A stretch of DNA of 64,000 nucleotides from Nocardioides gilvus (GTDB lineage: Bacteria; Actinomycetota; Actinomycetes; Propionibacteriales; Nocardioidaceae): contig NZ_QHKY01000003.1 in assembly GCF_003194605.1 (NCBI RefSeq), positions 496,001 through 560,000 on the forward strand, in the 5' to 3' direction. Both the position numbers and the translations under genes were made by a program. Of the stretch, positions 12,131-18,519 are shown one piece after another. Numbering within the stretch: the stretch's first letter is position 1; each line of letters starts with the position of its first letter. The notes beneath the pieces were generated by a model that worked only from the letters and a program-made list of their open reading frames with translations, was not told where the DNA came from and made no database searches.

Positions 12131-12808
12131 ATGGGCTGGTGGACCGACCACGTCGTGCCGCGACTGACCGACAGCGCGCTCGCCGCACCTGAGATCGGCG
12201 CACTGCGCCGAGTGGCCTGCGCCCCGCTGACCGGGCGCCTCCTCGAGGTCGGCTTCGGCTCGGGGCTCAACCTGCCCCACCTCGGCCCTGAGGTCACGGG
12301 CGTGGACGCCGTCGAGCCCTCCGACGTGGGGTGGGCGCGCTCGGAGTCGCGGCGCCGGGACTTCCCCGTCCCGGTGCGCCGCATCGGCCTGGACGGGCAG
12401 GAGATCAACGCCCCCGACGCGACCTACGACTCCGCGCTGGTCACCTTCTCGCTCTGCACCATCGACGACCCGGCGCGGGCGTTGACCCAGATCCACCGAC
12501 TGCTCCGCCCCGGCGGCGTCCTGGCCTTCCTGGAGCACGGGCTCAGCCCCGAACCGGGCACGGCCCGCTGGCAACGTCGACTCGACCCGCTCCAGCGGAC
12601 CCTCTGCGGCGGCTGCCACCTGAGTCGTGACATCCCGGGGTTGCTGACCGGGGCTGGCTTCGAGATCCACTCGCTGGAGGAGCGGGTGCTGCTCCCCGGC
12701 CCGGCGTTCGCGCGCCCGTGGGCGTACGGGTTCGTGGGTCAGGCGGTCAGAGCAGAGCCTGCGCGAGACCCAGACCGAAGGCGACCACCACCACCAGAGG
12801 GCCACTGA
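12131..12808 (+). CDS. Class I SAM-dependent methyltransferase
   Basis: A 225-residue small-molecule-type methyltransferase of the UbiE/Methyltransf_11 kind. Motif I is LLEVGFGSGLNLPHL (about residues 37-51), motif II is in the VDAVEPSD strand, and the post-motif region is TFSLCTIDDPARALTQIHRL followed by LRPGGVLAFLEHGLSP. Similar proteins are widespread in Actinobacteria without known substrates. The last 62 bp (12747-12808) overlap the 3' end of the convergent membrane-protein gene, and the final Arg/Pro-rich residues encoded there are probably not structured. It sits between tmk and topA, which are neighbours in many relatives. Confidence 0.85.
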   Translation: MGWWTDHVVPRLTDSALAAPEIGALRRVACAPLTGRLLEVGFGSGLNLPHLGPEVTGVDAVEPSDVGWARSESRRRDFPVPVRRIGLDGQEINAPDATYDSALVTFSLCTIDDPARALTQIHRLLRPGGVLAFLEHGLSPEPGTARWQRRLDPLQRTLCGGCHLSRDIPGLLTGAGFEIHSLEERVLLPGPAFARPWAYGFVGQAVRAEPARDPDRRRPPPPEGH

Positions 12809-13523
12809 CCCGGAAGTTGGTCCGCGGGCGCCCACCGAGACCGGTCGGACCACCCAGCAGCAGGTAGGCCGGCACGGCCAGCGTCGGCACCCAGACCAGC
12901 AACCAGAACCAGGCCCACCGGGTGGCACGTAGGGGTTGCGGGCCGAGCACGATCTGCACCAACACGGCCCACCACACGAGGAGCGTCAGTATCCCGGCCC
13001 AGAAGGGCAGCTGGTGGCCGCCGTCTTCGTCGATGTGCCCACCGACGGTGCTGCCGGTGTGACGGGGGCGCTCCACCACCTCGAGGCCCGGTTGCAACTC
13101 CTTCCACTCGGCCACCAGATCGTCGGTGACCACCACCGCGTCGGCGCCGTTGCGGAGGGCTTTCCGTTCCTGTCGCTCCGAGCTGACCTGGGTCACCTCG
13201 GCGAACCGGGGACGGAACTTGTCTCGCCAGTGCACTTCGAGAGTGGCGTACCCGCTTCTTTCCGGCTTCATCCCCGGCATCCCGGCGACTTCGACCCTGG
13301 TCACCTCGCCGCTCTCCAGCGCTTGGGTGAGGGAGTCGTACGGCACGTGCTTGGCGCCCTCGGTCAGCCAGGCCGCGGCGATGGCCAGGGCCGCGAGGGC
13401 CAGGACCCAGCCGTAGATCCGGTGGCCACGCGGCCACCGGTCGCTGCGCGGAGCAGCAGAGCTCGGCGCGTCGATGCCAGCGGACATCACCGCTGCCGAG
13501 GCCGGGACCTGCTCATTCGTCAT
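12747..13523 (-). CDS. Membrane protein of unknown function
   Basis: A 258-residue protein with about four membrane helices: one at residues 37-53 (GWVLALAALAIAAAWL) and a cluster at 175-258. Between them is a soluble loop of about 110 residues facing one side, beginning YDSLTQALESGEVTRVEVAG, which resembles the short extracytoplasmic domain at the start of FtsH-type proteins (residues that set substrate entry), although no ATPase or protease follows. The ATG at 13523 begins MTNEQVPASAAV. Its 3' end overlaps the convergent methyltransferase gene by 62 bp. No family is recognised with confidence. Confidence 0.7.
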   Translation of the reverse strand: MTNEQVPASAAVMSAGIDAPSSAAPRSDRWPRGHRIYGWVLALAALAIAAAWLTEGAKHVPYDSLTQALESGEVTRVEVAGMPGMKPERSGYATLEVHWRDKFRPRFAEVTQVSSERQERKALRNGADAVVVTDDLVAEWKELQPGLEVVERPRHTGSTVGGHIDEDGGHQLPFWAGILTLLVWWAVLVQIVLGPQPLRATRWAWFWLLVWVPTLAVPAYLLLGGPTGLGGRPRTNFRVSGPLVVVVAFGLGLAQALL

Positions 13524-13622: not shown

Positions 13623-13660
13623 CCGACACATTGGCCACTGATGTTTCACCCAGGCGAAAC
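13623..13660 (+). promoter_or_regulatory. GlnR-like operator upstream of 13757 gene
   Basis: Four five-base boxes spaced by exactly six bases all end in AC: CCGAC, GCCAC, TTCAC, GAAAC. This is the spacing of actinobacterial GlnR operators (gTnAC-n6-GaAAC repeated). The last half is nearly identical to the one before urtA: TCACCCAGGCGAAACACT here against TCACGCAGGCGAAACACT there, 17 of 18 bases. It ends 96 bp before the start of the small gene at 13757. The upstream two boxes are weaker matches. Confidence 0.5.
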
Positions 13661-13756
13661 ACTTCTGACCCACCCCGGTCGCATCCGGCGCACAGACTCT
13701 CCAGCAGACGGTCGGACCAATCCGCCGAGCACCGTCACCACCGAAGGGAGACGACG

Positions 13757-14089
13757 ATGATGTGGACCGTGAAGGCAATCTTCACCGACCGACGCAACGG
13801 CGTCGCGGCGGTGGCGACCGGAGCCGCCGATCACAACCTGGTGCTGATGGGCCTGCGCAGTCGCCCCGGGTGGAAGGCGCTGCTCGTCGACGAGCTCGTC
13901 CTCGCCACCCCGGGCGGTTGGAGCGCGGAGCGACTGGAGGCGTTCATGGTGACCGCGGGCGCGGCCACCGTGCAGGTCTCTCCGCTCATCGAGGAGCCGG
14001 CCGGGGCCAAGGCCCCGACCGAGATCGCAGCTCGTCGCGCCCACCCGGCCGGCTCCGGGTCCTGGCTGACCCACGCCCAGGCGTCCTGA
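13757..14089 (+). CDS. Small hypothetical protein, possibly nitrogen-regulated
   Basis: This encodes 110 residues. The start is the first of two overlapping ATGs (13757 and 13760), with GGGAGA five bases upstream. The protein begins MMWTVKAIFTDRRNGVAAVA and contains HNLVLMGLRSRPGWKALLVDELV, with no membrane segment, signal or known motif. The final 30 residues are Ala/Pro-rich. It is flanked by a GlnR-like operator upstream and a perfect hairpin terminator downstream, so it is a single-gene transcription unit. The operator suggests expression under nitrogen limitation, which is inference. Function unknown. Confidence 0.7.
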   Translation: MMWTVKAIFTDRRNGVAAVATGAADHNLVLMGLRSRPGWKALLVDELVLATPGGWSAERLEAFMVTAGAATVQVSPLIEEPAGAKAPTEIAARRAHPAGSGSWLTHAQAS

Positions 14090-14128: not shown

Positions 14129-14159
14129 CGTAGGGCCCCGTCACCGACGGGGCCCTACG
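14129..14159. terminator. Perfect hairpin terminator between convergent genes
   Basis: Arms CGTAGGGCCCCGTC and GACGGGGCCCTACG pair perfectly over 14 bp around the loop ACC. It lies between the stop of the 13757 gene and the stop of topA (14181), so it probably ends transcription from both sides. Confidence 0.85.
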
Positions 14160-17119: not shown

Positions 17120-17157
17120 CTCACGCGAACGTGACCATCTGGTCACGCAGGCGAAAC
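17120..17157 (+). promoter_or_regulatory. GlnR-type operator upstream of the urea operon
   Basis: Four boxes at 17120, 17131, 17142 and 17153 read CTCAC, GTGAC, GTCAC and GAAAC, each separated by exactly six bases. This fits the gTnAC-n6-GaAAC-n6-gTnAC-n6-GaAAC pattern of GlnR, the OmpR-type nitrogen regulator of Actinobacteria, with the 3' half a perfect match. The site ends 69 bp before the urtA start. GlnR control of urease and urea uptake is known in other Actinobacteria. Overlapping inverted repeats (CACGTTCG at 17101 with CGAACGTG at 17126; GTGACC with GGTCAC at 17131-17146) may add further regulator contacts. Confidence 0.72.
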
Positions 17158-17226
17158 ACTCCGCCACCAGATTCCTCCTCATCAGCATGGCCTGGTCCAC
17201 AGGCCTCCCAGGGAGGGAAAGAACTC

Positions 17227-18519
17227 GTGCGCAACCACACCACCATCCGGCGCCGCGCCTTCGCGGCCGCCTCAGTCCTCGTCTTCACTCTGACCACTGC
17301 CGCCTGCGGTGGCGCCAAGGCAACCGACGACGACGACAAGCCCGCCGCGAAGCCGGCGGAGTCCTGCGTCGACGTGTCGGGAGACACCGTCAAGCTCGGC
17401 TTCGTCAACTCCCTCACCGGCGCGATGGCCATCTCGGAGAAGACGGTCTCGTCCGTGCTCGGGATGGCTGCCGAGGAGATCAACGCATCCGGCGGGATCA
17501 TGGGCAAGAAGATCGAACCTGTCCAGGAGGACGGCGCGACCGACTGGCCCACCTTCGCGGAGAAGACCGAGAAGCTGCTCACCGACGACTGCGTCGCAGC
17601 GGTCTTCGGCGGCTGGACCTCCTCGTCGCGCAAGGCGATGAAGCCGGTCGTGGAGAAGCACAACGGGCTGCTCTTCTACCCGGTCCAGTACGAGGGCCTC
17701 GAGGCGTCGAAGAACATCTACTACACGGGCGCGACGACCAACCAGCAGATCCTCCCGGCGATGGAGTTCCTCAAGGCCGAGGGTGTGAAGACGCTCTTCC
17801 TGGCCGGCTCCGACTACGTGTTCCCGCGCACCGCCAACGCGATCATCAAGCTGTACGCCGCGGAGCTGGGCATCGAGATCGTGGGTGAGGAGTACGTGCC
17901 GCTCGACAAGGACGACTGGACCACCCAGGTCTCCAAGATCGTCAAGGCCAAGCCGGACTTCATCTTCAACACCATCAACGGCTCGTCCAACGTCGGCTTC
18001 GTCAAGGCCTACACCGACGCCGGGCTGAAGGCCGAGACGACGCCGATCATCTCGGTGTCGATCGCGGAGGAGGAGGCCCCCAACATGGGCGCCTCGGTCG
18101 AGGGCCAGTACGCCGCGTGGAACTACTTCCAGTCGGTCGAGTCGCCGGCCAACGAGAAGTTCATCAAGGACTGGGTCGCCTACGACGGTCCCAGCGACGT
18201 GACGTCCGACCCGATGGAGGCGGCGTACATCTCGCTCTACCTCTACAAGGCGATGGTGGAGAAGGCAGGATCCTTCGACGTCGACAAGATCAACGAGGCC
18301 GCCGACGGCGTCTCCTTCGACGCACCCGAGGGCAAGGTCGTGATCGACGGCGAGAACCACCACATCAGCAAGCCGGGGCTGATCGGAAAGATCAACGCGG
18401 ACAACCAGTTCGACGTCGTCTGGTCGTCGGACGCTCCGATCGAGCCGGACCCGTTCCTCAAGGGCTACGACTGGTTCCCGGAGTCGACGCGTGACGCCCT
18501 GGTGAAGGCCGCCGGCTGA
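17227..18519 (+). CDS. urtA: Urea ABC transporter substrate-binding lipoprotein
   Basis: A 430-residue urea receptor outside the membrane. The GTG at 17227 has GGAGG upstream and starts a lipoprotein signal: Arg-rich N-terminus, hydrophobic core, and lipobox TTAACGG with the lipidated Cys at 27. A Lys/Ala/Asp linker follows. The mature part is a type 1 periplasmic-binding fold of the branched-chain amino acid/urea/amide family: GFVNSLTGAMAISEK, EEINASGGIMGKKIEPV, AVFGGWTSSSRKAMKPV, and YPVQYEGLEASKNIYYTGAT, a segment typical of UrtA. It heads the operon urtABCDE-ureABCFGD behind a GlnR-type site. A strong hairpin after the gene probably keeps receptor mRNA more abundant than the permease part. 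Confidence 0.95.
   Translation: MRNHTTIRRRAFAAASVLVFTLTTAACGGAKATDDDDKPAAKPAESCVDVSGDTVKLGFVNSLTGAMAISEKTVSSVLGMAAEEINASGGIMGKKIEPVQEDGATDWPTFAEKTEKLLTDDCVAAVFGGWTSSSRKAMKPVVEKHNGLLFYPVQYEGLEASKNIYYTGATTNQQILPAMEFLKAEGVKTLFLAGSDYVFPRTANAIIKLYAAELGIEIVGEEYVPLDKDDWTTQVSKIVKAKPDFIFNTINGSSNVGFVKAYTDAGLKAETTPIISVSIAEEEAPNMGASVEGQYAAWNYFQSVESPANEKFIKDWVAYDGPSDVTSDPMEAAYISLYLYKAMVEKAGSFDVDKINEAADGVSFDAPEGKVVIDGENHHISKPGLIGKINADNQFDVVWSSDAPIEPDPFLKGYDWFPESTRDALVKAAG

Follow-up and report, generated by a model that had tools for sequence, protein, structure and literature searches.

The small gene at positions 13757-14089 of the window, by which we mean the whole 64,000-nucleotide stretch of Nocardioides gilvus DNA analysed here, raises two questions: does it belong to the nitrogen regulon governed by GlnR, and what kind of protein does it encode? 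The initial annotation had noticed that a site ahead of this gene resembles one ahead of urtA, and had proposed an unknown, nitrogen-linked protein of 110 residues. Here the promoter is compared with those of orthologs, of known nitrogen genes and of a related protein family, AAPatA, and the protein itself is assigned to a fold. Genomes of relatives are named by our own labels, G000 being the genome of the window.

Results

The likeness between the two sites is real. TCACCCAGGCGAAACACT (13646-13663) and TCACGCAGGCGAAACACT (17143-17160), the latter ahead of urtA, are identical in 17 of 18 bases as had been claimed, and they are the only two places in the window within three mismatches of the 18-mer, against 0.07 expected from shuffles. 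Nor is the sequence scattered at random over the genome, the outcome which had been named as speaking against a shared operator: TCACNCAGGCGAAACACT has exactly two copies in the 3.33 Mb genome, and its reversed control has none. Overlapping the 18-mer, TTCAC-n6-GAAAC at 13645-13660 is, as judged by its letters, a GlnR box pair, which fits the actinomycete consensus gTnAc-n6-GaAAc given in PMC10704036. Box 1 (TTCAC, 13645-13649) and box 2 (GAAAC, 13656-13660), separated by six bases, are followed by box 3 (GACCC, 13667-13671) and box 4 (GTCGC, 13678-13682), and the four make up an array on the plus strand in an 11-bp register (13645-13682), recognised from the sequence and from comparison with orthologs; boxes 3 and 4 are poor fits to the published GlnR consensus. 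Ten bases past box 4 stands a predicted -10-like hexamer, CAGACT (13693-13698, plus strand), whose spacing is kept in orthologs, and the ribosome-binding region GAAGGGAGACGACG (13743-13756, plus strand) was recognised by eye.

Five of the 17 bases that match the urtA site fall in the 6-base spacer, which differs among GlnR sites and among orthologs, and the near-identity of the two 18-mers is therefore partly luck. On this comparison the regulatory signal is the boxes rather than the full 18-mer, and the exact 18-mer was dropped as a regulatory unit because its spacer is unconserved. A palindromic reading (GTTTCaCC..GGcGAAAC), prompted by the inverted-repeat look of boxes 1 and 2 in G000 and G023, was dropped as well, since by eye the urtA, amtB and G232 sites differ.

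Could such boxes have arisen by chance in intergenic DNA that is rich in GC? TTCAC-n6-GAAAC with at most one mismatch occurs at 67 genome places against 28 in the reversed control, so that many single box matches are noise. The stricter KTNACN6GAAAC occurs at 19 places against 6 in the reversed control, and nine of the 19 fall within called coding sequences. Three genes recognised as nitrogen-related are among the 19: urtA, GSIII and the small gene, called the ACT gene hereafter. Genome-wide box counts alone are insufficient to establish GlnR control of the ACT gene. The perfect pair, however, reaches P 0.002 in the window region alone and recurs in diverged orthologs, and the promoter geometry is conserved, which makes mere chance hardly credible. 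Two further GlnR-like intergenic pairs were observed in this genome, one near an ABC-transporter-like gene (C2:313354, L040; by eye) and one preceding an amidase-domain gene (C6:60725, L050).

Orthologs were sought in 215 genomes of the genus at E 1e-9, and stand-alone ACT proteins were found in four of them (G000, G106, G023 and G232); a scan of a named-species collection, which used a peptide-pattern prefilter and may not include near copies of the window genome, added one further locus, in Nocardioides malaquae. In a search of 391 genomes of the order, every open frame among the matches listed from outside the genus has at least 273 aa. The stand-alone proteins are 40-51% identical to that of the window, and their promoters are thus diverged, though related by descent. 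All five of these promoters contain a box pair in forward direction, one of them with a single mismatch: TTCAC/GAAAC in three, TTCAC/GTTAC in one, and a pair with the mismatched box TTCAT in one. The best forward-strand pairs are TTCACccaggcGAAAC in G000 (P 0.0023 for the pair score in dinucleotide shuffles), TTCACctccccGAAAC in G023 (P 0.0013), TTCATctccccGAAAC in G106 (P 0.036), TTCACgtacgcGTTAC in G232 (P 0.0030) and TTCACcgacccGAAAC in N. malaquae (P 0.0007, for an intergenic region that is a 170-base piece cut by hand), where the box score and its threshold are our own. TTCAT is box 1 of G106, and G232 has a different box pair plus a one-base register shift.

Further downstream, boxes 3 and 4 (GACCC or GAAGC, then GTCGC) keep the 11-bp register in four of the five promoters. 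The hexamer, as CAGACT, CAGGCT, CAGGCT or CACGCT, stands exactly 32 nt past box 2, or n10 past box 4, in 4/5, and in G232 CAGACT stands 33 nt past box 2. By chance, a given promoter would have [TCG]AnnnT at exactly 32 nt with a probability of 0.012-0.024, and somewhere in the four allowed registers with a probability of 0.044-0.099. Comparison of these promoters brings out the candidate operator together with its conservation and its geometry. The two AC-ended boxes that had been noticed upstream, CCGAC (13623-13627) and GCCAC (13634-13638), are present on the plus strand, but the other four promoters have CGCCA/CGGGG, CCGCC/CCGGG, TCGCC/CCAGA and GCACG/CTTCG in their place; an array extending upstream (13623-13638) was consequently dropped as unconserved, and the array that is kept runs downstream. 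In three orthologs (L004, L075 and L209) we also observed a second kept pair, TTCAC-n6-GCCAC, which precedes the main pair by about 31 bp, is absent from the window promoter and is possibly a second GlnR or PhoP site.

The genome encodes GlnR itself, beside mshD, with a match to PF21695 (GlnR_1st) at E 1.7e-42 and solved-structure matches that include one named GlnR. Among 16 known nitrogen promoters of this genome and its relatives (urtA 3, amtB 6, glnA 3, GSIII 4), 12 hold a pair that is perfect by our score, those of the window genome being TTCACacggacGTAAC at amtB, GTCACgcaggcGAAAC at urtA and TTAACatgcctGAAAC at GSIII; urtA and GSIII of G232, amtB of G124 and glnA of G000 fall short of it. 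The order of a box, n10 and NAnnnT, counted under a loose box rule and without control, appears at amtB in 6/6, at GSIII in 4/4, at glnA in 2/3 and at urtA in 2/3, the exceptions being glnA of G000 and, with a spacing of 11, urtA of G023. The 11-bp register is kept strictly at urtA in G000 and G232 and at glnA in G023 and G106; the last amtB box does not keep it relative to the main pair, and that of GSIII is one base short. The urtA gene of the window (17227-18519, plus strand; likely start GTG at 17227), whose product matches TIGR03407 with 521.6 bits, above the cut-off, as a urea ABC transporter substrate-binding protein, is preceded by the array CTCAC, GTGAC, GTCAC and GAAAC (17120-17157, plus strand) and, n10 past its last box, by the -10-like hexamer CAGATT (17168-17173, plus strand). 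Four boxes in register agree with the GlnR activation complex as described in PMC10704036, where four DNA-binding domains lie head-to-tail on four sites.

Some features around these promoters deserve mention for themselves. The GSIII gene of G000 (726 aa, L117:904-3084 on C2, with GSIII_N) has a GlnR-like pair and GTAAC-n10-TAGGGT in L117:800-910, and the GSIII promoters of relatives have a perfect pair in G023 and G106 and other boxes in G232. Directly before urtA there is a MarR-like regulator gene in G023 and G232 (L084:662-1150 and L083:573-1052), an assignment based on a domain scan of the G023 protein; the gene is not in the window.

Repeats of 11 bp are also recognised by other OmpR-type regulators, and the operator might be bound mainly by PhoP or MtrA and answer to phosphate or cell-cycle signals. 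MtrA reportedly binds GlnR boxes, PhoP is said to compete with GlnR at glnA and amtB, and the extra TTCAC-n6-GCCAC pair kept in three orthologs would suit such a regulator. However, the second box is GAAAC and the spacing is as at amtB, urtA and GSIII of the same genomes, and Sven_0867, a relative of the ACT gene through AAPatA, is a GlnR target according to the results reported in PMC3087709, so we regard PhoP or MtrA as unlikely and GlnR as the preferred regulator.

The protein had been called unknown, and family models do leave it so: Pfam ACT models match none of the five stand-alone proteins, NCBIfam has no match for the window protein, and a PDB sequence search with it returned nothing useful. 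It can now be assigned nevertheless. When 58 relatives were searched, the window protein matched the N-terminal part of proteins of about 300 residues, whose N-termini match Pfam ACT PF01842 (15/15 at E <= 0.01); towards the C-terminus they are GNAT acetyltransferases, as a scan of two of them showed. Such ACT-GNAT proteins are the AAPatA family, where the motif DxPGxL with its conserved Gly is described as important by Lu et al. (2017, PMC6434083). By hhalign, the stand-alone form aligns with the AAPatA ACT domain over residues 1-82 at 97.9% probability (E 5.9e-13). A structure model built from two sequences (pLDDT 69.9, with residues 80-110, the last 31, under 50) has the secondary structure E2-9 H12-25 E29-37 E43-50 H57-67 E69-76, which is the ACT order, and its top solved match in Foldseek is the stand-alone ACT protein 1zpv (E 2.7e-4); VIA-align placed other ferredoxin-like folds (EF-1B, ribosomal S6) above ACT chains, a ranking taken as reflecting the common ferredoxin-like arrangement. 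These comparisons identify the protein of 110 residues as a stand-alone ACT domain whose relatives are the sensor domains of AAPatA.

Comparison also brings out the loss of residues. Position 14 is Gly in 34/34 AAPatA proteins and N, S, S, A and T in the five stand-alone proteins; position 29 is Asn in 33 of the 34, presumably a ligand-site residue of AAPatA, and V, A, A, A and A in the stand-alone five; and the motif DxPGxL has become DRRNGV in the window protein. All five stand-alone proteins have Gly at position 15, so a shifted ligand pocket is possible. In a tree of ACT domains the stand-alone forms are one group (95/97), with root and origin unresolved and G232 on a long branch. A search of G000, G023, G106 and G232 at E 1e-3 found no separate AAPatA, the sole matches being the small gene itself (G000, G232). 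As its sequence relationships suggest, the stand-alone ACT domain either derives from the domain with which AAPatA senses amino acids or is a sister of that domain.

With the GNAT domain and the ligand residues gone, and AAPatA absent from the four genomes tested, one may ask whether the window protein is a functionless, decaying remnant of AAPatA. We think this very unlikely, for equal length, neighbourhood and promoter are kept in five species at a protein identity of 40-51% and a C-terminal stretch, E..AR.AHP.G...W, is conserved, so that the ACT protein looks selected.

The promoters of AAPatA genes give a further view. AAPatA is found at E 1e-15 in 164 of 209 genus genomes, and 106 upstream regions were drawn from these 164, with 58 genomes outside the sample: 29 of the 30 loci of one set (G061 was dropped, its first codon being no start), 60 stretches taken down the match listing with some places skipped before the sequence was seen, and 17 other loci. 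Two upstreams with a doubtful start were kept among the 106 and dropped in the later promoter analysis. A pair scoring at least 7 of 8 lies between -75 and -45 in 66/106, at -60/-61 in 50 of these 66, and 40 upstreams are without one. Such a score is reached by 0.7% of mononucleotide shuffles and, among 742 control windows from the same upstreams, by 22. Box 2 stands at -60/-61 in 62 of the 106, which give 57 distinct 16-mers, the other 44 being outside this test. Although box 2 was the sole criterion for choosing the 57 sites, they also show boxes 1 and 4 and the G of box 3, and 53 of them have [TCG]AnnnT n10 past box 4; no other spacing between 2 and 19 has it in more than 4 sites. The hexamer distance in the ACT promoters equals that in the AAPatA promoters. 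Orthology inflates these counts, yet spacers vary while boxes stay. In the promoters of this set only some 7 nt separate the end of the -10-like hexamer from the start codon, and their transcripts are therefore probably leaderless. In another family of the order, all five AAPatA loci score 8, at -85 to -108 (L022, L024 and L029-L031).

Published data point the same way for Streptomyces. SvePatA is Sven_0867, as stated in PMC6434083, and among the GlnR targets that Pullan et al. (2011, PMC3087709) report from ChIP-chip is Sven_0867, with the site TTAACCCGTCAGTCAC; it is 6.7-fold induced in nitrogen starvation and 9.1-fold lower in a glnR mutant. In S. coelicolor the homolog SCO1293 appears to be induced under nitrogen limitation (PMC3073908). 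Combined, the statements of PMC6434083 and PMC3087709 place AAPatA among the GlnR targets of Streptomyces venezuelae. The text of the AAPatA paper PMC6434083 has no occurrence of GlnR, no paper joining AAPatA with GlnR was found in the open-access literature searched, and passages of PMC8007912, which contains both words, showed no link between the two.

The neighbourhood of the ACT gene is also conserved. The predicted reading frame downstream of the site exists as described (13757-14089, plus strand, stop at 14087-14089), and its product has 109-111 aa in five species. Between it and the convergent topA there is a perfect, terminator-like hairpin (14129-14159; -36.7 kcal/mol, z -5.26), which had been regarded as the own terminator of the gene; the hairpin is strong indeed, but without a T-run on the plus strand it is better read as a terminator shared with topA, probably a two-way one. 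The ACT gene adjoins topA in the four genus genomes (G000, G023, G106 and G232), and in N. malaquae one small ORF (L209:4393-4992, a putative lipoprotein by eye) separates the two. It had been suggested to look for homologs near glnA, amtB or nirB, but the nitrogen link does not appear in that form: the ACT gene stays by topA, and none of these genes was recognised beside AAPatA in five loci, three of which have a guaB-like neighbour named by eye.

On its other side the ACT gene has a divergent neighbour (12747-13523, minus strand), encoding a protein of 258 aa that is membrane-like by eye and has a weak FtsH_ext (FtsH extracellular) match under the cut-off. Homologs of this protein are encoded beside the ACT gene in G106 (E 2.9e-24), G023 (E 4.3e-23), G232 (E 9.8e-15) and N. 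malaquae (E 2.3e-19), the two genes being adjacent in 5/5 species. GlnR might act on this constant neighbour and the ACT gene be a mere bystander: both genes border the intergenic region that holds the site, which could serve as a common operator, and GlnR of M. smegmatis is described as governing divergent pairs in PMC3662644. But the boxes and the -10 hexamer face the ACT gene, at 32 nt in 4/5 and 33 in one, AAPatA genes, the relatives of the ACT gene, carry the same promoter, and a relative of the divergent protein was found at 0/34 AAPatA loci (E 1e-3), all of which makes a bystander role improbable.

Discussion

The membership in the nitrogen regulon that had been proposed is supported by promoter comparison, with the pair in 5/5 orthologs, GlnR encoded in the genome and the AAPatA relative Sven_0867 a GlnR target. 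From sequence evidence we consider it likely that the ACT gene belongs to the nitrogen regulon, is activated by GlnR, and encodes an AAPatA-like stand-alone ACT domain working by protein contact. GlnR activation, dimerisation, a partner and a physiological effect we infer along the following lines. Under nitrogen limitation, GlnR would occupy the four boxes at 13645-13682, which are spaced by 11 bp, in a head-to-tail arrangement. The array ends 10 bp before CAGACT, and GlnR bound to it would bring in RNA polymerase in the same way as at glnA and urtA; the promoter geometry may be read as GlnR replacing the -35 contact. The product would fold as an ACT domain, probably dimerise, and may have its role in nitrogen or amino-acid metabolism, either as the small regulatory subunit of another protein or as its partner. 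Because a catalytic domain is missing and two near-invariant ligand-site residues are lost, protein contact is most likely its way of working, and not Asn/Cys sensing of the AAPatA type.

A further scenario is more tentative, and we think it less likely than not: in a small lineage, an ACT domain that had been freed and re-tooled may have taken the place of the GlnR-regulated AAPatA; it would have kept the promoter and would act in trans on an enzyme or a separate acetyltransferase, retuning nitrogen or acetate metabolism in starvation. That the gene belongs to the regulon extends what is known on solid ground, if in an ordinary way; what is unusual is the freed and re-tooled ACT domain.

What is gained is first that an orphan protein of 110 residues now has a fold, a family and a predicted regulator. 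Moreover, GlnR control of the AAPatA family is suggested to be common in the genus of the window and to extend to another family of its order, which links nitrogen starvation to the control of protein acetylation in a directly testable way. For these genomes there is also a promoter rule by which GlnR-activated genes can be sought, namely four boxes in an 11-bp register, then n10 and NAnnnT.

Compared with known systems, the ACT gene shares gTnAc-n6-GaAAc pairs with the established GlnR regulon (glnA, amtB-glnK-glnD, urea and nitrite genes) and differs from it in that the target is an ACT-only protein, which in the literature searched was not found as a named GlnR target. The S. pneumoniae protein 1zpv, like the window protein as modelled, is a single stand-alone ACT fold, though at 15% identity the likeness is one of fold alone. 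A third counterpart is AAPatA (SvePatA Sven_0867, AmiPatA, MaKat), which has a homologous ACT domain and a GlnR-type promoter with equal spacing, while the window protein differs from it in being without a GNAT domain, in having lost the DxPGxL motif and Asn29, and in having its gene beside topA.
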